NCBI GenBank assembly: GCA_002695065.1
Contig: NZNW01000100.1
Span: 1 to 35,561, forward strand
Direction of reading: 5' to 3'
Source: Salinicola sp.
GTDB taxonomy: Bacteria > Pseudomonadota > Gammaproteobacteria > Pseudomonadales > Halomonadaceae
DNA length: 35,561 bases
Shown: positions 14,894-26,034 of the stretch, piece after piece
How the letters are laid out: each line of letters opens with the position of its first letter
How positions within the stretch are numbered: position 1 is the first letter of the stretch
Made by a program: the position numbers and the translations under genes
Notes under the pieces: generated by a model
What the model was told of the DNA's origin: nothing
Database searches by the model: none
Seen by the model: only the letters and a program-made list of their open reading frames with translations

Positions 14894-14920
14894 TCAAGCC
14901 GAGCGCGTGCCCGCCGATAC
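14894..14920 (+). promoter_or_regulatory. Sigma-28 (FliA) promoter of the flgO lipoprotein pair
   Basis: TCAAGCCG is followed by GCCGATAC with exactly 15 bases between TCAA and GCCGATA. The known FliA pattern is TAAA/TCAA-N15-GCCGATAA. It lies 58 bases before the ATG of the first lipoprotein, in the right orientation. The -10 matches at 7 of 8 positions; the -35 at about 4 of 8. Confidence 0.7.
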
Positions 14921-14977
14921 TCTCCGAAAGCCATAACCATACAGACGTCCCGGCGATCGGACAGGAACTCTCTACAC

Positions 14978-15649
14978 ATGTCATTGAAACCTTGGGTGCT
15001 GCTCTGCGGCCTGCCGCTGCTGAGCGGCTGCTTCGGCGTCAACACCTCCCAGGCCCCGCTGGCCACCACCTACCCGGCGACCACCCAGCAGCGTATGCAG
15101 GCCGCCTATCACTGGGAGGTGCTGGCGCGGCACGAGGCCAAGGCCATCATGGCCGACCGCAGGCTCGACCGGCGCGCGCTCTATATCAGGCCCCCCGAGA
15201 CCGAAACCGCCTTCAGCCGCGGCTTTGGCTCGCTGCTGACCAGCGAGCTGGTGAAACAGGGCGCCACGGTCAGGACCAGCGATCTCGGCGCGGCCACCGT
15301 CACTTTCGACGTGCAGGTCGTGGCACACCGGGATCGCCAGCCGATCCGCCCACCCCAGGGCGCGTTGACCGCGCTGGCGGCGGGCATCGCGGTGGCAACG
15401 ATTCCGTTCAACCATTGGTCGGAGCCCTCGCTGGCGCTGATCCCTGCCGCCGGGCTGGTCGACCTGTTCAGCGGCAGCTGGACCTCGGAGAGCGACGAGG
15501 AGGTGATCATCACCGTCCAGGCCGACGAGTACCAGACCCTGCTCTACTCCTCTTCCAATCTCTACTACATCAACCCCGGCGATAGCGGCCAATACGGCCG
15601 TGCGCCGGCTGCCGAGCAGGGCCAGCTCAAGGTATCGTCGCAATGGTGA
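14978..15649 (+). CDS. Uncharacterised outer-membrane lipoprotein paired with FlgO
   Basis: A 223-residue protein that I do not recognise as a named family. It begins with a lipoprotein signal peptide: MSLKPWVLLCGLPLLSGC, with the lipobox LSGC at about residue 18 and no aspartate at +2, so outer-membrane sorting is likely. After a conserved-looking block ARHEAKAIMADRRLDRRALYIRPPE it has a region FGSLLTSELVKQGATVRTSDLGAATVTFDVQVV. That region resembles the alpha-beta pattern of FlgO and other domains that build periplasmic rings or pores. Residues about 130-165 include a hydrophobic loop (ALTALAAGIAVATI). It is followed directly by the FlgO-domain gene and sits behind a FliA-type promoter. By context it is probably a flagellar outer-membrane accessory; this is inference. 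Confidence 0.7.
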   Translation: MSLKPWVLLCGLPLLSGCFGVNTSQAPLATTYPATTQQRMQAAYHWEVLARHEAKAIMADRRLDRRALYIRPPETETAFSRGFGSLLTSELVKQGATVRTSDLGAATVTFDVQVVAHRDRQPIRPPQGALTALAAGIAVATIPFNHWSEPSLALIPAAGLVDLFSGSWTSESDEEVIITVQADEYQTLLYSSSNLYYINPGDSGQYGRAPAAEQGQLKVSSQW

Positions 15650-15672
15650 GGCGCAGCCGAGAGAGTTCCGCA

Positions 15673-16218
15673 ATGTACGTATCTTTCTACGCTCGGCTGC
15701 TGCTCGTGCTGCTGCTGGCGGCACTGACAGGCTGCTCGATGCTCGCCCCCAACGGCCGCCCACACCAGCCGACCACCCTGGAGCGGGTCGACTCGGCAGC
15801 CAAGGCGCTGGTCGAGAACAGCCGGGGGCGGCTCGACGACGCCGCACCGCTGGTCGCCACCACCTTCGTCGACGTCGACCACCTCGGGCAATCCTCGACC
15901 CTGGGCCGTACCCTGAGCGAAATGTTCGTCTCGCGGTTGGTCGAGTCTGGCCAGCAGGTGATCGAGGTCAAGCTGCGCAACAGCCTCTACATCGAAGAGA
16001 ACACCGGCGAGCTGATCCTGTCGCGTAACGTGCAGCGGCTGAGTCAGGATTACGACGCCAGCGCGGTGCTGGTGGGCACCTACGCTCAGGCCCAGGATCG
16101 GCTGTTCGTCAACGCCCGGGTGGTGCGTATCGCCGATCGCGCAATCCTCGGCGCGACCAGCTTCGAGCTGCCGCTCAACAATGATCTGCGTACGCTGCTG
16201 CCCCCCAGCTACCCCTGA
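15673..16218 (+). CDS. flgO: FlgO-domain outer-membrane lipoprotein
   Basis: A 181-residue protein. A lipoprotein signal peptide (YARLLLVLLLAALTGC, lipobox LTGC) is followed by a FlgO domain. Landmarks are APLVATTFVDVDHLGQSSTLGRTLSEMF, RLVESGQQVIEVKLRNS and DYDASAVLVGTYAQAQDRLFVNARVV. In Vibrio, FlgO with FlgP and FlgT is needed for stable flagellar anchoring at the outer membrane. The ATG at 15673 gives a signal peptide of normal length; an ATG at 15643 overlapping the previous stop would add ten charged residues before it. Only 23 bases separate it from the upstream lipoprotein, so the two are one operon. A strong terminator follows. The flg letter is used for the domain; orthology to Vibrio FlgO is not proven. 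Confidence 0.85.
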   Translation: MYVSFYARLLLVLLLAALTGCSMLAPNGRPHQPTTLERVDSAAKALVENSRGRLDDAAPLVATTFVDVDHLGQSSTLGRTLSEMFVSRLVESGQQVIEVKLRNSLYIEENTGELILSRNVQRLSQDYDASAVLVGTYAQAQDRLFVNARVVRIADRAILGATSFELPLNNDLRTLLPPSYP

Positions 16219-16251
16219 GCCGAGCCGACCTCGAGACTATCTCGACAACGC

Positions 16252-16278
16252 AGAAGGGCGCCCGATGGGCGCCCTTCT
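16252..16278. terminator. Bidirectional terminator, flgO / leuA
   Basis: AGAAGGGCGCCC and GGGCGCCCTTCT form a 12-bp perfect stem with a 3-base loop, between two convergent stop codons. T-richness after the stem is limited on either side, but position and strength support a shared terminator. Confidence 0.75.
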
Positions 16279-16306
16279 CGTCTTGCCTCGCAGCGGTCGG
16301 TGACGC

Positions 16307-18013
16307 TCAATCGACGGTGGTCGCGCGCGCCTCGGTGGTCTGCGGCGCACCCTGGGCCTCGGCCAGATTGATCCCGGAGAGGATCGCCTTGAGCGAGGCA
16401 CTGACGGTGTCGCTGTCCTCGGCCACGGCGCAGACGCGTTGCCCGTCGACGTTGAGCTGGACGAAGGCGATGGCGTTGGCCTCGCTGTCGCCACCCAGCG
16501 AGTGCTCCGCGTAGTCGATGATGCCGACGCTGACGCCGGAATGCTTCTGCCACGCATCAGTGAAGGAGGACATCGCGCCGTTGCCCTTGCCGGCGAGACG
16601 CAGCGTCTCGGCGCCCTGCCACAGGGTCACCTCGATGCCTTCGTCCTGCCCTTTGGAAAGACGATAGTCGGCCAGCGACAGCGGTGACTCGCAGGTGAAC
16701 CGATCGAACATCACCTGGCGAATGATCTCGCTGGAGAGTTCGCTGGCCCGCTTCTCGCTCTCCTGCTGCACGTGGGGCGCCAGCGCCAGCATCATCCAGC
16801 GCGGCAGGCTGATGCCGTAGTCGCGCTCGAGCAGGAACGCCATGCCGCCCTTGCCGGATTGGCTGTTGACCCGAATCACCGCCTGATAGTCGCGACCGAT
16901 GTCATGCGGATCGATGGGCAGATAAGCGACCTGCCACGGCTCGTCCGGCCGCTGCTTCTTGAGCGACTTGCGGATCGCGTCCTGATGGCTGCCCGAGAAG
17001 GCGGTGTAGACCATCTCGCCGACCCAGGGGTGGCGCGGGTGAATCGGGATGTTGGTGCACTCGTTGACCACTTCGATGATCTCGTCCGGCCGCGACAGGT
17101 CGAGTTCCGGATCGATCCCCTGGCTGTAGAGGTTCATCGCCAGCGTGACGATGTCCATGTTGCCGGTGCGCTCGCCGTTGCCCAGCAGCGTGCCCTCGAC
17201 GCGCTCGGCCCCGGCCAGCAAGGCCAGCTCCGCGGAGGCCACCGCCCCGCCGCGATCGTTGTGGGTGTGAATCGAGATGATGACGCTGTCGCGATCCCTG
17301 ATGTGCTGGCAGAAGTACTCGATCTGATCGGCGTGATGATGCGGCCCCGCCACTTCCACCGTGGTCGGCAGGTTGAGGATGCACTTGTTGTCGGGTGTCG
17401 GCTGCCAGACGTCCATGACCGCTTCGCAGATCCGCAGCGAGAAGTCGATTTCCGTGCTGGAGAAGCTTTCGGGCGTGTATTCGAACCGCCACTCCACTTC
17501 CGGATAGCGCTCGGCGTAGGTCTTGACCCAGGTGGCGCCCTGCACCGCGATGTCGACGATGCCATCGCGATCCATCTCGAACACCCGCTCGCGCTGGACC
17601 GTCGAGGTGGAGTTGTAGAGGTGGACGATGGCGCGCTTGGCACCGACCAGCGACTCGAAGGTCTTCTCGATGAGGTGCTCGCGACACTGCACCAGCACGG
17701 CGATGGTCACGTCGTCGGGAATCTGGCCATCCTCGATCAACCAGCGCACGAAATCGTAGTCGGGCTGGCTCGCCGAGGGGAATCCGACCATCACCTCCTT
17801 GATGCCCACCTTGACGATCTGGTGCCAGAATCGCTTCTTCTGCTCGACGCTCATCGGTTCCAGTAGCGCCTGATTGCCATCGCGCAGGTCTTCGCTCACC
17901 CAGATCGGCGCGTGATCGAGATCACGATCCGGCCACTGGCGGTCGAAGGCGGGGACCCGGGGAGCCGGGCGGTATTTTCTGTGATCAAAGGCGCGATGAT
18001 CGAAAGCAGACAT
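16307..18013 (-). CDS. leuA: 2-isopropylmalate synthase
   Basis: A 568-residue enzyme of the long LeuA subgroup. It condenses acetyl-CoA with 2-oxoisovalerate in the first committed step of leucine synthesis. The TIM-barrel domain shows APIWVSEDLRDGNQAL with the metal and substrate residues, then IISIHTHNDRGGAVA and GAERVEGTLLGNGERTGN. The C-terminal regulatory domain begins near residue 440 and includes GKGNGAMSSF and AIAFVQLNVDG, the leucine-sensing fold. The start is the ATG at 18013, with CAGGA eight bases upstream; an ATG three codons earlier is too close to that site. No other leu genes adjoin. It is divergent from an Lrp/AsnC-type regulator, a suggestive pairing for amino-acid control. 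Confidence 0.97.
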   Translation of the reverse strand: MSAFDHRAFDHRKYRPAPRVPAFDRQWPDRDLDHAPIWVSEDLRDGNQALLEPMSVEQKKRFWHQIVKVGIKEVMVGFPSASQPDYDFVRWLIEDGQIPDDVTIAVLVQCREHLIEKTFESLVGAKRAIVHLYNSTSTVQRERVFEMDRDGIVDIAVQGATWVKTYAERYPEVEWRFEYTPESFSSTEIDFSLRICEAVMDVWQPTPDNKCILNLPTTVEVAGPHHHADQIEYFCQHIRDRDSVIISIHTHNDRGGAVASAELALLAGAERVEGTLLGNGERTGNMDIVTLAMNLYSQGIDPELDLSRPDEIIEVVNECTNIPIHPRHPWVGEMVYTAFSGSHQDAIRKSLKKQRPDEPWQVAYLPIDPHDIGRDYQAVIRVNSQSGKGGMAFLLERDYGISLPRWMMLALAPHVQQESEKRASELSSEIIRQVMFDRFTCESPLSLADYRLSKGQDEGIEVTLWQGAETLRLAGKGNGAMSSFTDAWQKHSGVSVGIIDYAEHSLGGDSEANAIAFVQLNVDGQRVCAVAEDSDTVSASLKAILSGINLAEAQGAPQTTEARATTVD

Positions 18014-18112
18014 GGCAACCATCCTGACGAGGTGAAAGAGCCGAAGGATCGTAGGGCGCGCCGCTGGAGCGAGCCCCGCTGTTGAGCCACCGCGGATCGC
18101 GGCGGACACGAG

Positions 18113-18143
18113 GGCCGGCCCCCGGATGTGGAGGCCGGCCCGA
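18113..18143. promoter_or_regulatory. GC-rich hairpin in the leuA 5' region
   Basis: GGGCCGGCC and GGCCGGCCC flank a 12-base loop about 100 bases before the leuA start. There is no T-run and no leucine-codon leader peptide that I could find. Classic attenuation is therefore not supported, but the stem is strong enough to affect the leader RNA. Confidence 0.35.
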
Positions 18144-18223
18144 AGCTGCTTGTGGCAGCAGAAACAGTGTAAGGCTTTTGAGCCGACAGGACATTGCGAA
18201 GATCGATCTTTTTCGCCACTTGG

Positions 18224-18268
18224 TGGCATAATCTGCCAACCCATAAAAATTTACAGGCAGATATTGCC
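18224..18268. promoter_or_regulatory. Paired inverted-repeat operator, leuA / Lrp-type gene
   Basis: TGGCA-TAATC-TGCCA (18224-18238) is a perfect dyad. A second, GGCA-GATAT-TGCC (18256-18268), ends two bases before the regulator ATG. Their centres are 31 bp apart, close to three helical turns, so both face the same side of DNA. This arrangement fits cooperative binding by an Lrp/AsnC protein octamer and autoregulation. CATAAT at 18227-18232 could be a -10 box covered by the first site. Confidence 0.55.
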
Positions 18269-18269
18269 A

Positions 18270-18755
18270 ATGAAAGCCCCACAACCCCTTGCACTCGATC
18301 GCTACGACCGACGCATCCTCGAACTGATCCAGCAGGAAGGCCGGATCAGCAACCAGGAACTGGCCGAGCGCATCGGGCTCTCGCCGTCGCCCTGCCTGCG
18401 CCGTCTGCGCGCGCTGGAGGAGAATGGCCTGATCCTCGGTTACCGCGCCCTGGTCGACGCGCGGCAGCTGGGTTATCGGCTGATGGCGCTGGTGCACATC
18501 TCCATGGATCGCCACACCCCCGAGCGCTTCGCCAACTTCGAGCGCCAAGTGGCGGCGCTGCCCCAGGTACAGGAGTGCCTGATGATCACCGGCCAGGAGG
18601 TCGACTATCAGCTCAAGATCCGGGTCGAGGACATGGACGGCTATCAGCAGCTTCTGCTGCAGCACATCACGCCGATCGAGGGCGTCTCCGGCGTCCACTC
18701 CAACTTCGTGCTGCGTCCAGTGTTCGAAAATCGCGGCGTGCCGGTGGAGCTCTGA
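18270..18755 (+). CDS. Lrp/AsnC-family transcriptional regulator
   Basis: A 161-residue DNA-binding protein. The N-terminal winged helix shows LDRYDRRILELIQQEGRISNQELAERIGLSPSPCLRRLRALEENGLI (about residues 9-55), a classic AsnC-type HTH with the SPSPCLRR recognition helix. The C-terminal RAM domain, residues 70-150, has the alpha-beta fold with the ligand-site glycine in LMITGQEVDYQLKI. I started it at the ATG at 18270; the frame is open upstream but non-coding in character. It is probably a feast/famine-type regulator responding to an amino acid, plausibly acting on the divergent leuA and on itself through the paired dyads between them. It is not close enough to call Lrp itself. Confidence 0.9.
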   Translation: MKAPQPLALDRYDRRILELIQQEGRISNQELAERIGLSPSPCLRRLRALEENGLILGYRALVDARQLGYRLMALVHISMDRHTPERFANFERQVAALPQVQECLMITGQEVDYQLKIRVEDMDGYQQLLLQHITPIEGVSGVHSNFVLRPVFENRGVPVEL

Positions 18756-18838
18756 CCGACAGGACCGCCCCACACCGCGCGAATTGGACCATACTCATGC
18801 ACGACGACGCGCGACCGATCACAACACAGGAAAATGCC

Positions 18839-19354
18839 ATGCCTTTTCGCCGTACCCTGCTCGCCTCGCTGCTGCCGCTGGCCGCCGCCATCCTGACGCC
18901 GGCGCAGGCTCAGCAGCCGAACGAACCACAGGTCGATACCGAGCAATTCCAGTCCTGGGAAGTGCGCTGTCCCAAGGGCGGTGAGCGCCAGAGCTGCGTG
19001 ATGAGCCAGATGGTCAGCAACCCGGACAGCGACGAGCCGCTGATGCGCGCCATGGTCGGACTTCCGGCCCAGGCCGACGGTCCGGTCATGGTCTTCCTGC
19101 TGCCGCTGGGCGTGCGTCTGGCGCCGGGTATCCAGCTGCAGGTGGACGACAACGAACCGGTGGGCATGCCCTATCAGGTCTGCCTGCAACAAGGCTGCCG
19201 CGCCAATCTGGCGCTGTCGCCGCAGCTGCTCGCCCAGCTGCGCGGCGGCAACCAGGCCACCGTCAGCGCCATCGCCCCCGACGGCAAGCGGCTCGACATG
19301 GACCTGTCGCTGATGGGCTTCACCAGCGCCAGCCAGCGCATCGCCTCGCAGTAA
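18839..19354 (+). CDS. Invasion-associated locus B (IalB) family periplasmic protein
   Basis: A 171-residue exported protein. The signal peptide at about residues 1-26 (RRTLLASLLPLAAAILTPAQA) is followed by the IalB domain. Conserved features are FQSWEVRCP, the cysteine in QSCVMSQMVSN, MVFLLPLGVRLAPGIQLQVD and MPYQVCLQQGCRANL, giving four cysteines likely in disulfides. Named for a Bartonella invasion factor, the family is widespread in non-pathogens, where its role is unknown. The ATG at 18839 has CAGGAAAA upstream; an ATG at 18797 would bury the signal peptide. It lies 83 bases after the Lrp-type gene, and co-transcription is possible. Confidence 0.88.
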   Translation: MPFRRTLLASLLPLAAAILTPAQAQQPNEPQVDTEQFQSWEVRCPKGGERQSCVMSQMVSNPDSDEPLMRAMVGLPAQADGPVMVFLLPLGVRLAPGIQLQVDDNEPVGMPYQVCLQQGCRANLALSPQLLAQLRGGNQATVSAIAPDGKRLDMDLSLMGFTSASQRIASQ

Positions 19355-19371
19355 AGGGCCCCGCCAGATGC

Positions 19372-19398
19372 CAGGCCCGGCGCCCCGCGCCGGGCCTG
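19372..19398 (+). terminator. GC-rich hairpin after the IalB-like gene
   Basis: CAGGCCCGGCGC and GCGCCGGGCCTG form a 12-bp perfect stem with a 3-base loop, 17 bases after the stop. The T-run is poor, so efficiency is uncertain. Confidence 0.6.
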
Positions 19399-19504
19399 TC
19401 CTGGCCGCAGCGACGGTCCGGTCCCGACGGCGCAGCGTCGGCGCTGGTCGACTTCCCCCCATTAGACGATTGCGCAATTGTGGAGAGCGTAACGCCGGGT
19501 TAAG

Positions 19505-19520
19505 ACTTTGCATGCAAAGT
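19505..19520. promoter_or_regulatory. Perfect 16-bp palindrome upstream of the Bug protein
   Basis: ACTTTGCATGCAAAGT reads identically on both strands. It lies 57-72 bases before the ATG of the binding-protein gene, a usual place for a repressor or activator site. A shorter palindrome, ATTGCGCAAT, lies at 19469-19478. No regulator gene adjoins, so the binding protein would be encoded elsewhere. Confidence 0.55.
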
Positions 19521-19551
19521 TCATCTTGAAAACCCGTTCATCCTGAAAACC
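19519..19551 (+). repeat. Two near-identical 16-bp direct repeats
   Basis: GTTCATCTTGAAAACC (19519-19534) and GTTCATCCTGAAAACC (19536-19551) differ at one position and are 17 bp apart. They lie just downstream of the 16-bp palindrome and 26 bases before the gene start. They may be tandem protein-binding sites or a slippage duplication in the leader. Confidence 0.6.
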
Positions 19552-19576
19552 ACAAGACACGCCTAGCGAGGTCACC

Positions 19577-20554
19577 ATGAAACGATCAAGCGCGCCCCGC
19601 CATCTCGGCCTGCTGCTGTCCGCCGCCGTCCTGGCCTCGCCGCTGGCATGGGCGGACTATCCCGAAAAGCCGATCACCCTGATCGTCCCCTGGGCAGCCG
19701 GCGGGGGCACCGACGCCACGGCGCGCATCATCGCCTCGTCGCTGGAACAACAGCTCGGGCAGACGATCAACGTGCAGAACCGTACCGGGGGTAGTGGCGT
19801 GGTCGGCCATACGGCGATCGCCAACGCCAAGCCGGATGGCTACACCCTGGGCCTGGCCACCGTCGAGGTGGCGATGATGCACTGGCAGGGGCTGACCGAT
19901 CTCACCTACCAGGACTTCACCCCCATCGCTCAGGTCAATTTCGACTCCGCCAGTCTCTCGGTTGCCGACGACTCCCCGTTCGAGAACCTCGAAGACTTCG
20001 TGACGAAGGTCAAGGACGACCCGCAAGGCACCTATACGGCGTCGGGCACTGGCCTGGGCGGCATCTGGCACGTCGCGCTCAACGGCTTCCTGATGGACCA
20101 GGGCATCGCCGCCGGCAAGATCACCTGGATTCCCAGCCAGGGCTCCGCGCCGGCCATGACCGAGCTGGCCTCCGACAGCATCGACCTGGTGGCGTCGTCG
20201 CTTCCCGAGGCGCGATCGATGATCGATGCCGGCGAGCTCCAGAGCCTCGGCGTCATGACGCCCGAGCGACTCGAGGGCTTTCCCGATGTCCCGACCTTCA
20301 AGGAACAGATCGGCAGCGATTTCACGCTGGGGGCGTGGCGCGGCATCGTCGGTCCCAAGGGCATGAGCGAGGATATCGTGGCCACGCTCGAGGAGGCGCT
20401 CAAGAAAGCCTACGACAGCGATGCCTATCAAAACTTCATGGCCAAGCAAGGTTACGGCGTGGTGTGGCGAGACGCCGATGGCTTCGCGCAGTTGATGGCC
20501 GAAGATGACCAGAAATTTGGCAAGATCATGGGCGAGATGGGCCTGACTCATTAA
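19577..20554 (+). CDS. Bug/TctC-type solute-binding protein (orphan)
   Basis: A 325-residue periplasmic binding protein of the tripartite tricarboxylate transporter type. The signal peptide covers about residues 1-26 (cleavage after LASPLAWA), followed by the canonical start DYPEKPITLIVPWAAGGGTDATAR, the first ligand loop. The second loop region is near YTASGTGLGGIWHVAL. Bug proteins bind carboxylates such as citrate, glutarate, nicotinate or aromatic acids in a Venus-flytrap cleft with two water bridges. GAGGTCACC precedes the ATG. The usual TctA and TctB membrane partners are absent from this window. The next gene, 101 bases on, is an HpaI-type aldolase, so the ligand may be a 2-oxo or hydroxy acid made or used by that enzyme. 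Confidence 0.93.
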   Translation: MKRSSAPRHLGLLLSAAVLASPLAWADYPEKPITLIVPWAAGGGTDATARIIASSLEQQLGQTINVQNRTGGSGVVGHTAIANAKPDGYTLGLATVEVAMMHWQGLTDLTYQDFTPIAQVNFDSASLSVADDSPFENLEDFVTKVKDDPQGTYTASGTGLGGIWHVALNGFLMDQGIAAGKITWIPSQGSAPAMTELASDSIDLVASSLPEARSMIDAGELQSLGVMTPERLEGFPDVPTFKEQIGSDFTLGAWRGIVGPKGMSEDIVATLEEALKKAYDSDAYQNFMAKQGYGVVWRDADGFAQLMAEDDQKFGKIMGEMGLTH

Positions 20555-20655
20555 GGGATATCCCGCACCCTGCTCTCGATACCCGATCGGGCCGGCGTCG
20601 TGACGATACCGGCTCGTTCTCATTTCCCGTCTCAGATACCCAAGAGGTGACCTGC

Positions 20656-21453
20656 ATGGAGCTGCCACGGAATCCATTCAACCGCTCGCTCGACGGCAAT
20701 ACGCGCTACGGCTGCTGGGCCGGTTTCGGTACCGGCTATGCCACCGAGATTCTCGCCACTGCGGGGTTCGACTGGCTGCTGATCGACGGTGAACACGCGC
20801 CCAACACGGTTCCCTCCATTCTGTCGCAGTTGCAGGCCGTGGCCCCCTACGCCAGTGCACCGGTCGTGCGTACCGTCAACCACGACCCCGCCCTGATCAA
20901 GCAGCTGCTCGATGTCGGCACCCAGACGTTGATGATCCCGATGGTCGATACCGCCGAGCAGGCCGCCAGACTGGTCGCCGCGACCCGCTACCCGCCACAC
21001 GGATTCCGGGGCGTCGGTGGGGGCCTGACCCGCGCCACGCGGTGGGATAGCGTCGAGGATTACCTGGCCCGGGCTCATGAGGAGCTTTGCCTGATAGTCC
21101 AGGTGGAGTCGCGGACCGGCGTCGACAATGCCGAAGCGATAGCGGCGACCGAGGGCGTCGATGCCATCTTCGTCGGGCCGGTGGATCTGTCCACCGGGGT
21201 CGGCCACGCCGGCAATCCGAACCATCCCGACGTGCAGGCGATGATTCGCCATACCCTCGAGGCGACCCACGCCGCCGGCAAGGCCGCCGGCATCCTGGCC
21301 CCCGCCGAGGCAGACGCCAGACGCTACGCGCAATGGGGCTTCGACTTCATCGCCGTGGGAATCGATATCTCGCTGCTACGTCAGGCCGCCATCGAGACGA
21401 TTTCGCGCTATAAACCCGAGACGCCAAAACCGAAATCGAGCCTCGGGTACTGA
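20656..21453 (+). CDS. HpcH/HpaI-family class II aldolase
   Basis: A 265-residue cytosolic enzyme of the family that includes 4-hydroxy-2-oxoheptanedioate aldolase (HpaI) and 2-dehydro-3-deoxyglucarate aldolase (GarL). It is expected to cleave a hydroxy-oxo-acid to pyruvate plus an aldehyde, using a divalent metal. The catalytic histidine lies in LLIDGEHAPN (H47). The metal ligands lie in VQVESRTGV (Glu) and IFVGPVDLSTG (Asp). The phosphate- or carboxylate-binding arginine region is in YPPHGFRGVGGG. AAGAGGTGA precedes the ATG at 20656. It is probably in one unit with the Bug protein. The true substrate cannot be read from sequence. Confidence 0.9.
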   Translation: MELPRNPFNRSLDGNTRYGCWAGFGTGYATEILATAGFDWLLIDGEHAPNTVPSILSQLQAVAPYASAPVVRTVNHDPALIKQLLDVGTQTLMIPMVDTAEQAARLVAATRYPPHGFRGVGGGLTRATRWDSVEDYLARAHEELCLIVQVESRTGVDNAEAIAATEGVDAIFVGPVDLSTGVGHAGNPNHPDVQAMIRHTLEATHAAGKAAGILAPAEADARRYAQWGFDFIAVGIDISLLRQAAIETISRYKPETPKPKSSLGY

Positions 21454-21482
21454 AACCCGCCACTCGATCGTGAGTTGGCAAC

Positions 21483-21514
21483 GGCATCGAAGCATCGAGG
21501 CATCGAGGCATCGA
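21483..21514. repeat. Four tandem 8-bp repeats
   Basis: Four consecutive copies of (G/A)GCATCGA lie between the aldolase stop and the DUF1127 terminator. They are short enough to vary by slippage. No function is evident. Confidence 0.8.
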
Positions 21515-21516
21515 AA

Positions 21517-21547
21517 AAGCCCCGGCCACATCCTGTGGCCGGGGCTT
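21517..21547 (-). terminator. Terminator of the DUF1127 gene
   Basis: AAGCCCCGGCCACA and TGTGGCCGGGGCTT form a 14-bp perfect stem with a 3-base loop. On the minus strand TTT continues directly after the stem, giving a run of five T. It starts three bases past the DUF1127 stop and can also stop the aldolase transcript from the other side. Confidence 0.9.
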
Positions 21548-21549
21548 GG

Positions 21550-21879
21550 CTAAGCCAACTGTTCTCCGCAATATCGACATATCACGGTCTTGTCCGCGAG
21601 GGATTCGACGCCCGGCATCGCTTCCACTGCACGAGTCATGTCCGCCGTCTCTCGGTAGTTCGCGGTCTGCTCGGACTCGCTGAAAACACGACCCCTTCCC
21701 ACCGTCGTTTTTTCATTGAAGACCGGGAAAGCCGAAACGATCTGGTTCTCCTCCCGGCGCAGACCGATGTCCTCGAGCATATGGTCGTTCAACCCCCTCA
21801 AGGCCCTCAAATCACGCCGGCACTGACGACTCGCCGCGAAACGCTTCAATAACGCATTGAAAGAATTTGAAATTTTCAT
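21550..21879 (-). CDS. DUF1127 protein with long C-terminal tail ending in CxxC
   Basis: A 109-residue protein. Residues 1-48 match the DUF1127 (YjiS-like) pattern: basic, with RDLRALRGLNDHMLEDIGL and then RREE. Most DUF1127 proteins that I know are 45-75 residues and stop near there. Some bind RNA and affect phosphate or stress metabolism in alphaproteobacteria. Here a further 60 residues follow, polar and without clear domain, ending in VICRYCGEQLA with a CxxC pair that could hold half of a zinc site or be redox-active. GGAG lies nine bases before the ATG. It has a strong terminator directly after the stop. The function of the tail is unknown. Confidence 0.82.
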   Translation of the reverse strand: MKISNSFNALLKRFAASRQCRRDLRALRGLNDHMLEDIGLRREENQIVSAFPVFNEKTTVGRGRVFSESEQTANYRETADMTRAVEAMPGVESLADKTVICRYCGEQLA

Positions 21880-22391
21880 TGATCCGATCTCCAGATCGGC
21901 GGAGGCCGGACACGAATCGCGGTAAAAAGGAGTGGACTTTCGTCGTCTTTCGGCCGCGATGGGTGTCGCGGCCGATGATGAAATTCACCCCAGGACGCGC
22001 GACCGACAGCGTGCTCGCATACCGCGCAGGCGCGCGATATTGGAGAACGGTGAACAGGCCAGGCGATGGGAATTCATCACGATTTCCGAAAGTTGATGAG
22101 AAGTCTTCGATAACGTCATCCGCTATCGAATTACCGAAAGCAATAAACTTATTCCCTCCGGTCATTTTGATTAAAAACGAGGCATCTGCCGGCGTCAACC
22201 GGCAAAATGGAAATAGGTCAAGATTCTTCGAGTCGCGCCGGGATGGAAGCTCACGACGGGAAAAGCGAGGTGGTTACCGGGGTAAAGCGTGCAGGTGTGG
22301 CCTGGCACGCCGGCACCGATCGGAAACGCGACGGTTCGGCAGCCCTTCAAACGCCCGGCTAGCGCTGGGTAGCGCCAGCCGGGCGCAGGCT
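21880..22391. other. Intergenic region without a clear gene
   Basis: About 510 bases between two minus-strand genes. Open frames cross it on both strands (for example 21812-22198 minus), but they lack ribosome sites, domains or sensible composition. CGGCCGCGA and TCGCGGCCG (21951-21974) form a 9-bp hairpin. An AT-rich patch lies at about 22080-22180. Promoter signals for the DUF1127 gene should be near 21890-21950; none is strong. Confidence 0.5.
22352..22385 (-). terminator. yjfB terminator
   Basis: CGCCCGGCTAGCGCT and AGCGCCAGCCGGGCG form a 15-bp stem with one mismatch and a 4-base loop. TTTG follows on the minus strand. It begins six bases past the yjfB stop. Confidence 0.75.
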
Positions 22392-22595
22392 TCAGGCATA
22401 GGTGTTGATTTGCGTTCCCACGCTGCCGGAGGATGCCAGCTCCGGCGACGGTGACACCGAGGACATCAACTGCGCGATGTGTGACGCCTGCCCATCCAGC
22501 GACTTCTTCAACAGGCTATTCTGCACTTGCTGGTCCTGATTGAAGTTCTGTAGTGCCAACGCAGTGCCGACGGTGGCATTGACTGCAGTATCCAT
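22392..22595 (-). CDS. yjfB: YjfB-family putative motility protein
   Basis: A 67-residue soluble protein. The pattern fits the small YjfB family: an Ala- and Gln-rich helix (VGTALALQNFNQDQQVQNSLLKKSLDGQASHIAQLM), a Pro/Ser-rich linker and a C-terminal GTQINTYA, where family members end in a similar G--I-T-A. The family is annotated as putative motility proteins without a known mechanism. The ATG at 22595 has AAGGAG at ideal spacing; an upstream ATG at 22625 does not. A FliA-type promoter lies about 95 bases upstream and a terminator directly downstream, so this is a single-gene flagellar-class transcript. Confidence 0.8.
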   Translation of the reverse strand: MDTAVNATVGTALALQNFNQDQQVQNSLLKKSLDGQASHIAQLMSSVSPSPELASSGSVGTQINTYA

Positions 22596-22644
22596 CACCA
22601 ACTCCTTGATCCGAAGAAAGGCCATGTTGCCATCGAACTTTCAG

Positions 22645-22676
22645 TTTCTCGATCTTTCGGTTTCTCGATCTTTCGG
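22645..22676 (-). repeat. Perfect 16-bp tandem duplication in the yjfB leader
   Basis: TTTCTCGATCTTTCGG (plus-strand reading) occurs twice in direct succession. It lies between the FliA-type promoter and the yjfB start, so it would be transcribed into the 5' leader. It may be a slippage product or a duplicated binding element. Confidence 0.75.
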
Positions 22677-22690
22677 TCCATCGATTGGTC

Positions 22691-22718
22691 TTATCGGCCG
22701 GACGCCACACCGACTTTA
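22691..22718 (-). promoter_or_regulatory. Sigma-28 (FliA) promoter of yjfB
   Basis: On the minus strand TAAAGTCG (22711-22718) precedes a perfect GCCGATAA (22691-22698). There are 16 bases between TAAA and GCCGATAA, one more than the usual 15. Both boxes otherwise match the flagellar sigma-28 consensus. Confidence 0.7.
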
Positions 22719-22840
22719 GCCATCGGGCATGGGCAGGCATCGCGGGCGGCGACCCCTGCGGGTAAATCACGACGCTATCGTCTACGCTTGACGGCGCAAT
22801 TCTCATCCGGTCAAGCGTTTACCGTCCGAAGGATATATCG

Positions 22841-23449
22841 ATGCCCAGACTCTCGTTTACCCTCGCACTGGCACTCTGTGTCGGCGTTACCTTGAGTGCC
22901 TGCCAGCAGCGTGATGCCGCGAATCAGGATAGCGACGCTTCCAAGGAGACCTTCCACGCGGCGAATTACCCGCTCGAGGTCCAGTACGATGCCTCGCTGA
23001 CACGCGTCGATGGAGAGGTCTCCAGCTATTTCGACGACGGCGGCTGGCAACTGTCGGACAACACGCCCGGCGATCGCCTGATCCTGCTGGAACTCCCCGA
23101 ATCCGACGACGTGGCGACCGCGCTGTGGCGCCTGGGCGCAAGCCGTGATACCGAGGCCGTGGACCACTGCCTGACCTTGCCTGCCAATGCCCAGGCCATG
23201 CCCACCAAAACCACCTTGGCGGGAGAGGCGTTTACGGGCTTCACCCTTGGCGACGCCGGCATGAGCCACTTCCAGAATGCCGAAGGTTATCGCGCCGTGG
23301 TGAACGATACCTGCTACGCCATCGACCTGATCGTGCAGGGCACCCGTGGCGAGGTCTACGATCCCCCACGCCAGCCGCCGTTCTCCAGCGACGAGGCCAT
23401 GAAACGGTTGCGCTCGATCAGCGACGGGCTGTCGTTCACTGGCAAATAG
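22841..23449 (+). CDS. Hypothetical lipoprotein
   Basis: A 202-residue protein with a lipoprotein signal peptide, MPRLSFTLALALCVGVTLSAC (lipobox LSAC, cysteine at about residue 21, followed by QQ, which predicts outer-membrane sorting). The mature part is mildly acidic, with no domain that I recognise. It has two further cysteines (in DHCLTLP and NDTCYAID) that could form a disulfide. AAGGA lies seven bases before the ATG. It is convergent with the chemoreceptor gene, only five bases between the two stops, so no functional link is implied by orientation. Confidence 0.8.
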   Translation: MPRLSFTLALALCVGVTLSACQQRDAANQDSDASKETFHAANYPLEVQYDASLTRVDGEVSSYFDDGGWQLSDNTPGDRLILLELPESDDVATALWRLGASRDTEAVDHCLTLPANAQAMPTKTTLAGEAFTGFTLGDAGMSHFQNAEGYRAVVNDTCYAIDLIVQGTRGEVYDPPRQPPFSSDEAMKRLRSISDGLSFTGK

Positions 23450-23454
23450 CCAGG

Positions 23455-24996
23455 CTATCCCACTGCCGCCGGCGTTCGGCCGGCCACCTGAGGGAGCGCG
23501 CGCGCCCCCGATGGGGTCGCTCCAGCCGAATACCGGCTCGATGCCGCCGCGTCGATCGTCTTCCCCAGATCGAAGGACGAGATCGCCTCATCCAGCAGGC
23601 AGGATTGCTGACGCAGTCGCTCCGAGGCGCGCGAGACGCTATCGACCAGCGATCCGTTCTCCTCGGTATCCTGGCCGATCCCGCGCAGGTCGGCGTTGAC
23701 CTCGCCAATGTCGTCGCTCTGGCGGCAACAGGCCTGGCTGATCCCGTCGATCAGCCGGGCGACATCGTTCGTCCGGGCAAGCATGTCGGCCATGGTATGC
23801 GCGACGTCTTCCGCCCTGGCGGTACCGTTCACGACTTGCTGCCGGGAGTTGCCGATCAGCGCCCTGATATCGCGGGACGCGCCGGCGCTGCGGTTGGCCA
23901 GCGCCTGCACTTCGCCGGCGACGACCGCAAAGCCACGCCCGCTCTCCCCCGCGCGCGCTGCCTCCACGGCGGCATTGAGCGCCAGGATATTGGTCTGAAA
24001 GGCGATGCTGTCGATCAGATCGGTGATTTCGGTGATCCTGTTCGAGCTCTCGCGCAACTGATGCATGGCCTCTGTCAGCGCATCCACCATCTGCTGGCCC
24101 TCTTCCGCCACGCCGCCTGCTTCACTGGCCAGCGTACTGGCGCGTCGGGCATGGTCGCTGTTCTCCTGCACGGAGCCGCCGAGAGCCTCGAGCTTGCCTT
24201 GCGTGCGGACCAGCGCCGTCTCCTGCCGGCGATTGCGATCGGCGAGCTCGTCGTTGCCTTGATTGATCGTGCTGGAGACTCCCGCCACCTCGACGAGCGT
24301 CGCCTCCACGCGCCCGAGCGTCGCGCGCACGGCCTGCATCGTGCGCTTGAACTCGCCACCGACGTGGCTGCGCATCGTCGTATCGTCGAAGCCGAGATCG
24401 AATATGCCCTCGCGGCGCCCGATGTGCCTGCTAAGACGGCTCAGCTCTTCGGCAATGACGGCGTCACGTGCCATCTGGCGCGCCAGGAACCCCAGCACCA
24501 CCGTCTGGACGACCACGTAGGCAGCGTGGATCAGGACCATCGGCAGATAGGCCATCATGTGCGATTGCGGCATCACATAGATGTCCCAGCCCTGGTGTTG
24601 CAAATAGCAGAACAGCAGGTGATGACCCGCGATTACGCCCGCGCCGCAGGCCAGCACCCGCCAATCCCGGTACGCCAGCAGGGTCGACAACAGGACGAAG
24701 ATGACGAAGTGCCCCTCGATCATCCCCAGCAGCAGGTGGATCTGCAGTCCCGCATGGACCATGAACGCCGTCGCCACGCCGAGACGCGTCATCAGTGCGG
24801 TCGGCCAGCACCGAATCATCGCGATGGGTACGATACTGGCCGGCAACCCCACGACCAGGGCTGGCCACCACAGGTCGTGAATGGCGGCCATTCCCAGTGT
24901 CGCGAAGCAGAGGACGATCAGCAGCAGCTCCATCAGACGATTGGCACGAACATAGACGCCGGTCAGCAGGTCACTGGGCGAAGAAGATGAATCCAT
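23455..24996 (-). CDS. Methyl-accepting chemoreceptor with His-rich membrane sensor
   Basis: A 513-residue protein. The first 170 residues form about six membrane helices with almost no periplasmic domain. They carry many histidines: H81, H87, H96, H125, H126, H134, H146 and H157, in [35 protein letters not shown] and [10 protein letters not shown] cytoplasmic coiled coil follows, then the MCP signalling tip at about residues 322-372 ([39 protein letters not shown]). No C-terminal CheR/CheB pentapeptide is seen. The start is the ATG at 24996 after GAGAG; a GTG four codons earlier is possible. A FliA-type promoter lies about 75-100 bases upstream. The sensed ligand is unknown; histidine spacing suggests heme or metal binding. 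Confidence 0.92.
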
Positions 24997-25067
24997 GGCG
25001 TCTCTCACGGTCTTGTTGTCGGATCCGGTCCATTACCGGGTGTCAGCGTGCATGCCGATCAGAACAG

Positions 25068-25094
25068 TTATCGGCACCGCGAAGCGACACTTCA
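25068..25094 (-). promoter_or_regulatory. Sigma-28 (FliA) promoter of the chemoreceptor gene
   Basis: On the minus strand TGAAGTGT begins at 25094, and a perfect GCCGATAA ends at 25068, with exactly 15 bases between TGAA and GCCGATAA. The -35 matches TAAAGTTT at 6 of 8 positions and the -10 at 8 of 8. The expected transcription start is about 65 bases before the ATG. This is the best of the three FliA sites. Confidence 0.82.
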
Positions 25095-25185: not shown

Positions 25186-26034
25186 ATGAAAACCATCGGA
25201 GCCCACGTCAGCGCCGCGGGCGGTGTCGACCAGGCCGTGAGTCGCGCCACCGAGATCGGCGCCAACGCTTTTGCGCTGTTCACCAAGAATCAGCGCCAGT
25301 GGAAGGCCAAGCCCCTGGAAGAGAGTACGATCGAGGCATTCAAGCGCGCCTGTCGCGAGCAGGGTTTCGGCCCGGCGCAGATACTTCCCCACGACAGCTA
25401 CCTGATCAACCTGGGCCATCCCGACCCGGACGGGCTGGCCAAGTCCCGCGCGGCGTTTCTCGACGAGTGCCAGCGCTGCGAGCAGCTGGGGCTGACACTG
25501 CTCAACTTCCACCCCGGCAGTCATCTCAACCGGATCAGCGAGCGCGACTGCCTGGCGCGCATCGCCGAGTCGATCAACGAGGCCCATGCGGCGACCCGCT
25601 CGGTGGTCGCGGTGATCGAGAACACTGCCGGCCAGGGCTCGAATCTCGGCTTCAGGTTCGAACAACTGGCCGAGATCATCGAACAGGTCGACGACAAGAC
25701 CCGCGTGGGCGCCTGCATCGATACCTGTCACGCCTTCGCCGCCGGCTATGACCTGCGCACCGAGGCGGACGCCACTGCAATGCTCGACGAGTTCGAGCGC
25801 GTGGTCGGCATTCAATACCTGCGCGGCATGCACCTCAACGATGCCAAGAGCGAGTTCGCCAGTCGGGTCGACCGCCACCACAGCCTCGGCAAGGGCAATA
25901 TCGGCCTGCCGGGGTTCACCGCATTGATGCGCGATCCCCGCACCGATGACATACCGCTGATACTGGAAACCGTCGAACCGGCGATCTGGCCGGACGAAAT
26001 CCAGTGGCTGCGCGATCAGCAGCACGCCGATTAA
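25186..26034 (+). CDS. nfo: Endonuclease IV (AP endonuclease)
   Basis: A 282-residue enzyme, against 285 in E. coli Nfo. It cleaves DNA at abasic sites and removes blocked 3' ends in base excision repair, using three zinc ions in a TIM barrel. Family signatures are [73 protein letters not shown] and [11 protein letters not shown], which supply the His, Glu and Asp ligands. The ATG at 25186 (MKTIGAH) is the conserved start; the open frame before it runs into the promoter region of the chemoreceptor. A small membrane protein follows 22 bases after the stop. Confidence 0.97.

Follow-up and report, generated by a model that had tools for sequence, protein, structure and literature searches.

Probable FliA promoters upstream of a lipoprotein-FlgO gene pair, a yjfB-like gene and a chemoreceptor gene in Salinicola, and their conservation among halomonads

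The sequence analyzed here, contig NZNW01000100.1 of Salinicola sp. (assembly GCA_002695065.1), is 35,561 nucleotides (nt) long and is referred to as the window; it is one entire contig of a 4.68-Mb draft genome composed of 153 contigs. Three intergenic sites in the window show the two-box form of promoters for the flagellar sigma factor sigma-28 (FliA). They precede a gene pair for a predicted lipoprotein, designated LIP, and an FlgO-domain lipoprotein, a yjfB-like gene, and a chemoreceptor gene. With a probability of roughly 0.88, the three sites are genuine FliA promoters of a late flagellar class similar to that of Escherichia coli, and the genes are under FliA control. Orthologues retain the sites although the DNA separating the two boxes has diverged, and the comparative evidence for the sites is stronger than the motif evidence. 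Most of the result is ordinary late-flagellar biology; the new part is LIP, encoded at 14978, and the LIP-FlgO cassette.

The three sites were proposed in a first-pass annotation of the window, and direct reading of the DNA bears out their coordinates, boxes and orientation towards the genes named. Promoter 1, TCAA-N15-GCCGATAC (14894..14920, plus strand), lies between a formate/nitrite-transporter gene and the LIP gene, and its -10 box ends 57 nt before the ATG at 14978. Promoter 2, TAAA-N16-GCCGATAA (22691..22718, minus strand), lies between yjfB and a divergent gene at 22841, with 92 nt to the GTG at 22598 or 95 nt to the likelier ATG at 22595. Promoter 3, TGAA-N15-GCCGATAA (25068..25094, minus strand), lies between the chemoreceptor gene and a divergent gene of the AP_endonuc_2 family (endonuclease IV-like) at 25186, with 59 nt to the GTG at 25008 or 71 nt to the ATG at 24996. 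Measured in this way from the end of the -10 box, all three are within about 100 bases of a start codon, as had been claimed. Transcription is predicted to start near 14927, 22684 and 25061, respectively. The intergenic status of all three sites depends on the gene starts adopted in this analysis; a mechanical list of open reading frames stretches the endonuclease frame to 25048, across site 3, and the start adopted is the ATG at 25186.

The source genome contains flagellar genes, namely fliA, flhDC, motA, cheA, cheZ, flhB, and the genes for flagellin and FlgK. Ten proteins were scanned on one contig (C130). FlhD, FlhC, MotA, CheA, CheZ, FlhB and FliA exceed their NCBIfam cut-offs, an FlhE-like protein falls below its cut-off, and neither of two chemoreceptor-like proteins passes an equivalog cut-off. 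Flagellin and FlgK were recognized by Pfam, and CheY is the receiver-domain protein immediately upstream of cheZ. To judge from these genes, the regulatory hierarchy is of the E. coli type (FlhDC, then FliA) and not of the sigma-54 type of Vibrio.

The same two-box form recurs in the genome. The pattern TNAA-N15-GCCGATA has 26 matches versus 2 for the reversed pattern, and TNAA-N16-GCCGATA has 20 versus 4. Nine of the 26 N15 matches precede the genes for flagellin, FlgK, CheY, three chemoreceptor-type proteins and a PilZ-HD protein, and the two N15 loci of the window; the remaining 17 are mostly within open frames or upstream of genes without a motility label. Three of the 20 N16 matches precede motA, a chemoreceptor gene and yjfB, and one or two others possibly stand before sensory genes. 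The 16-nt gap might have counted against site 2, but the same gap is used upstream of motA in this genome. The window sites thus show TNAA and GCCGATA boxes 15 to 16 nt apart in the proper orientation, in a genome with a FliA gene and similar late promoters.

The sites were scored with a matrix built from nine two-box sites of the source genome outside the window, which is partly circular, as the training sites were found with the same two-box pattern. The window sites rank first to third (22.3, 19.4 and 19.0; next non-overlapping match 13.0); the matrix members themselves score 12.8 to 23.4 when each is left out in turn. Three window matches score at least 14; in 20 random sequences such matches number 0.35 on average and never more than 2. 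With an independent matrix derived from 22 E. coli sites determined by chromatin immunoprecipitation sequencing (ChIP-seq), sites 2 and 3 are the two best matches in the window (21.8 and 19.4, respectively; next 15.2). Five matches to the two-box N15 pattern with at most one mismatch are found in the window versus 1.05 expected, and the two exact ones are sites 1 and 3.

Conservation was scored with the own-genome matrix at a threshold of 12 upstream of each gene on the same strand, with the opposite strand as a control. The family sample includes 121 genomes and the class sample 369 genomes. LIP was found in 45 of the 121 family genomes, and all 45 carriers have a same-strand FliA-type site in the 300 nt upstream of LIP with a score of at least 12.8 (at least 15 in 34 of them); the opposite strand reaches 12 in one of the 45. 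With the E. coli matrix at a score of 8, sites are found upstream of LIP in 45/45 carriers versus 6/45 on the opposite strand, upstream of yjfB in 46/82 versus 16/82 copies, and upstream of the chemoreceptor gene in 5/5 versus 0/5 orthologues. Among 43 distinct N15 stretches upstream of LIP, the T, A and A of the -35 box, the G following them, and GCCGA are invariant, while the remaining spacer columns show 30 to 74% identity; these statistics exclude the two N16 sites, and the boxes are biased since they were selected by the matrix. Both boxes also form the main conserved block when 16 upstream regions are aligned by MAFFT without selection, with one sequence having its site further upstream. 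In most genomes of a genus designated g10, the last one to three bases of the -10 box deviate (e.g., GCCGATTT, GCCGATCT, GCCGACTA), and these sites have the lowest scores. A site of at least 15 precedes LIP in 19 of 23 named loci. In genomes similar to S. acroporae and S. lusitanus (L030 and L031; named loci L065 and L066), the best site is 209 and 141 nt from the start, not about 57, as if DNA had been inserted.

The yjfB-like gene (22392..22595, minus strand) encodes a small protein of 67 amino acids. Its score against YjfB_motility (PF14070) is 20.3 bits (E 5.8e-4), below the gathering score of 27, and yjfB is therefore used as the nearest family label. The protein resembles that family in its small size, its start with MD and 39 matched profile residues; it differs in the sub-cut-off score and in the end GTqiNTyA, which is conserved in an alignment of 83 rows. 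YjfB was reported in a gene module with the flagellar sigma-28 (PMC11607428). There are 82 copies in 78 of the 121 family genomes. A site of at least 12 precedes 43 of the 82 copies, versus none on the opposite strand, and it is present in all 14 Salinicola genomes and all 10 genomes of genus g2, where the -35 box begins with G in 10/10. Genus g2 is taken to be Chromohalobacter, judged from the identities of LIP relatives. Of the 111 genomes whose FliA exceeds the cut-off, 77 contain the yjfB-like gene, versus 1 of the 10 others (Fisher p 0.0004, which overstates the evidence as the genomes are related).

The chemoreceptor gene (23455..25008, minus strand) encodes a methyl-accepting chemotaxis protein of 517 amino acids (PF00015, E 4.8e-41), whose start may be the ATG at 24996. 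A search of 18 genomes of the genus at E 1e-60 matched orthologues in 7, five of them full length; this count of five excludes a fragment (L140) and a partial sequence with 45% identity (L141). A site of at least 12 precedes four of the five, the fifth scores 11.5, and the opposite strand has none. In the genome with the fragment (G003:C30:63132-63584), just the last 151 chemoreceptor residues are found, between the endonuclease gene and the counterpart of the gene at 22841, and yjfB is intact.

LIP (14978..15649, plus strand) is a predicted lipoprotein of 223 amino acids with the lipobox LLSGC and Cys18, and it matches no Pfam, NCBIfam or PHROGs family. Its closest named relatives are from Salinicola tamaricis (97%), Gammaproteobacteria bacterium MFB021 and Salinicola endophyticus (96% each), which places the source organism within Salinicola or close beside it. 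The FlgO-domain lipoprotein (15643..16218, plus strand) matches PF17680 with 135 bits, over the gathering score of 22.6 (E 1.9e-39, with the frame read from 15673). Its ATG at 15643 is within the end of the LIP gene, and the two genes overlap. It is related to FlgO chains of solved structures (E 3e-17), comprising 58 chains of one sequence in entry 9yds and 174 chains over three further entries, while no solved relative of LIP was found at E 1. The annotation's assignment to motility by domain therefore holds for the second gene of the pair through PF17680, fails for the first, which has no Pfam match, and is below the cut-off for yjfB.

The pairing is strict in the family sample: FlgO follows LIP in the same orientation at 45/45 loci, and 45 of the 46 genomes with FlgO have the adjacent LIP and the FliA-type promoter, the 46th (G092) having a weak FlgO match and no LIP. 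In the class sample, where FlgO matches with E > 1e-10 were not counted, LIP occurs in 11 of 369 genomes with FlgO adjacent in all 11, and five more genomes have a strong FlgO match and no LIP. The LIP gene of one genome (G047) is split over two frames and was counted once; the split (L186, G047:C1:2604205-2604824) is either decay or a sequencing error. A second LIP-like copy in G156 (L254), without FlgO in the available stretch, was excluded. FliA scores over the cut-off in every one of the 45 pair carriers, whereas 10 of the 121 genomes have no such FliA, one of them (G017) falling narrowly short (p 0.013, with genomes related). In genus g10, to which the named loci L081 (Halomonas sp. metagenome-assembled genome) and L082 (Vreelandella zhanjiangensis) probably belong, a MotB/MotD-like gene is within about 2 kb of LIP in 12/12 genomes; it was not seen at the other 33 family loci, where the available DNA is often too short to judge.

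LIP was also compared with known ring proteins. It is not claimed as an FlgO paralogue: the profile-profile probability is 92.9% with signal peptides (reversed control 0.2%) and 10.8% without them (control 0.3%), the trimming having removed some mature residues as well. An identity as FlgP was rejected, as none of 24 LIP members matches LPP20 even at E 1.

The genes and promoter of the pair are present or absent as one unit. The pair is carried by 6 of the 14 Salinicola genomes. The same neighborhood was fetched from five of the eight others, and genes and promoter are both absent in 5/5, while the order transporter, leuA, lrp-like, TctC-like, HpaI-like, yjfB, endonuclease is kept. In one of them (G003), the flanks are 100% and 99.7% identical right up to the missing block. 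The remaining gaps of 120 to 183 nt in these five genomes contain no FliA-like site (best score 2.0 on the same strand and 6.9 on the opposite strand). LIP and yjfB are 5.5 to 11 kb apart in all 16 Salinicola and g2 genomes with both. The scatter of the genes among housekeeping genes, as the annotation described it, is therefore a conserved neighborhood in Salinicola and g2.

In the FlhDC-FliA-FlgM cascade, FliA is released upon completion of the hook-basal body (PMC4183435, PMC6504787). FliA freed at this stage would transcribe the LIP-FlgO operon, yjfB and the chemoreceptor gene, each as a separate unit outside the flagellar clusters, alongside flagellin and other chemoreceptors. LIP and FlgO would be co-produced from the overlapping genes and would most likely reside at the outer membrane, possibly encircling the motor or stator as an accessory collar or ring. 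Such a collar would be late and optional, tuning swimming and not enabling it. A role in a ring is possible, with at best an even chance.

FlgO is a component of the H-ring in Vibrio (PMC6375700, PMC6504787). The Vibrio flgOP/flgT system and the halomonad pair share the PF17680 family and an operon of two adjacent genes whose products are both lipoprotein-like. In Vibrio, FlgO functions with FlgP and FlgT under sigma-54/FlrC-dependent class III control (PMC6504787), whereas in halomonads the partner is LIP and the promoter is of the sigma-28 type. Searches at E 0.001 for FlgT_M and for LPP20, the FlgP family, gave no match in the 45 pair carriers of the family sample, so the Vibrio-type H-ring set of FlgO with FlgP and FlgT was not found in them. 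FlgT and LPP20 occur together in the same 16 of the 121 family genomes, none of which has a LIP or PF17680 match, the reverse of the situation in the pair carriers; the two genes are side by side in L239 (G028:C40:102259-103614). A strict exclusion of LIP and FlgT was rejected: it holds in the family (0/45), but 2 of the 11 LIP genomes of the class sample (G203 and G240) have FlgT.

Kaplan et al. (2019) described the FlgO of Chromohalobacter salexigens (Csal_2511) as the "sole exception" to a rule connecting periplasmic rings and stator type (PMC6375700). It is likewise a halomonad FlgO without FlgP or FlgT; only FlgO and MotY are listed for that species by Kaplan et al., while LIP and a FliA-type promoter are added by the halomonads analyzed here. 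LIP is a candidate partner for this exceptional FlgO, judged from relatives, as C. salexigens itself is outside the named loci. A broader proposal is that LIP and FlgO form a two-lipoprotein outer-membrane ring of halomonad flagella, an H-ring version without FlgP and FlgT in which LIP replaces FlgP, assembled late under sigma-28 and gained or lost as one cassette with its own promoter; we advance it tentatively, at well under even odds. If it is true, FlgO can serve in the absence of both FlgP and FlgT, it is under sigma-54 control in Vibrio but sigma-28 control in halomonads, and a motor add-on can act as a cassette. A lipoprotein family without a Pfam model also gains a tie to late flagellar expression, and a direct test is possible because some related Salinicola have the pair and others lack it. 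No description of LIP or of FliA control of halomonad flgO was found in literature titles and abstracts, which is weak evidence of novelty as subscription journals are thinly covered.

Alternatively, the sites may be real FliA promoters and LIP-FlgO a late pair of envelope lipoproteins rather than a motor part, protecting or remodeling the outer membrane of swimming cells, e.g., around the filament exit. This is a serious possibility, again below even odds. It agrees with the absence of the pair from more than half of the Salinicola genomes and of FlgT and LPP20 from every family pair carrier, and with flgO mutants of V. cholerae, which show just reduced motility and fragile filaments (review, PMC6504787). 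At the class loci outside the family, the flanking genes matched by Pfam (10 proteins, 7 of 8 loci) are mostly housekeeping and none is flagellar. The known place of FlgO in the Vibrio ring and the MotB/MotD-like gene beside the pair throughout g10 speak for a motor part instead.

Several observations weigh against FliA control of the three units. Site 1 scores only 8.4 with the E. coli matrix, which is chance level; it therefore rests on conservation and not on a match to the E. coli motif, and that matrix was rejected as the only judge. Of 3000 random 300-nt stretches drawn from the fetched loci, 5.1% reach 12; this is an upper bound, as these loci include the promoter regions themselves. 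No site of at least 12 precedes 39 of the 82 yjfB copies, and the conservation is confined to part of the family. LIP has no such site in three Marinobacterium loci, one of which reaches 8.3 with another stretch, and a Desulfobulbaceae metagenome-assembled genome (4 of the 23 named loci). All 8 class loci outside the family lack a FliA-type site (best 5.1, with start codons guessed and one unresolved). Given where the site is present and where it is missing, the pair seems to be under FliA control chiefly in halomonads. Sigma-54 sites sought before LIP in the class and Marinobacterium loci gave only weak partial matches, the best with 6 of 12 positions. Eight of the 14 Salinicola genomes lack the pair though FliA is present, and therefore the pair is not essential for the motor. 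One genome without FliA over the cut-off (G009) retains a good yjfB site. In addition, according to Fitzgerald et al. (PMC4183435), computational prediction of in vivo FliA binding is poor.

The sites could be chance matches in GC-rich DNA, the genes using other promoters. GCCGATA has 18 copies in the window versus 4.0 expected, probably due to codon use; because of this over-representation, scans by the -10 box alone are misleading here, and a bare -10 box was rejected as evidence. Many of the N15 and N16 matches in the genome are inside open reading frames, and the E. coli matrix gives site 1 a low score. Chance is nevertheless very improbable, as all three sites lie between genes, point in the right direction and are conserved although their spacers diverge, and site 1 is missing where the LIP-FlgO genes are missing. 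A crude sigma-70 scan of two regions found no other promoter, which says little as only 0.2 and 0.5 were expected by chance. Still more improbable is that the sites are relics of an ancestral FliA control now irrelevant in the source strain, as the G009 site might suggest, since the FliA of the source genome is a 232-amino-acid frame without stops scoring 317 bits against the FliA model and flagellin has its own site. The G009 site itself (L207, G009:C12:371825-375028; score 22.0) is either a relic of lost flagella or the result of an assembly gap.

FliA control of the three units thus remains the favored reading, with support from the own-genome matrix, the other late genes and orthologue conservation. 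The annotation's "hidden" motility regulon is an overstatement, because it is usual in E. coli for FliA targets, among them chemoreceptors, ycgR and yhjH, to be scattered (PMC4183435, Table 2). The late promoters of E. coli share the -35 box TAAA or TCAA, the -10 box GCCGATAA and the 15-nt gap, and its late motility genes outside the flagellar clusters also include aer, tsr and trg (PMC4183435). In the source genome, by comparison, a 16-nt gap is also used (motA, chemoreceptor, yjfB), C is common at the second -35 position, and the targets include FlgO and LIP; PF17680 has no match in 14 named control genomes, E. coli among them.

Two further genes were noted. The PilZ-HD protein gene with a FliA-type site upstream (L017, G000:C107:28017-28042, minus strand) suggests a possible link of cyclic di-GMP to late motility genes in the source genome. 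The gene divergent from yjfB (22841-23449, plus strand) encodes a predicted lipoprotein of 202 amino acids without a Pfam match and is present in all five Salinicola neighborhoods examined.

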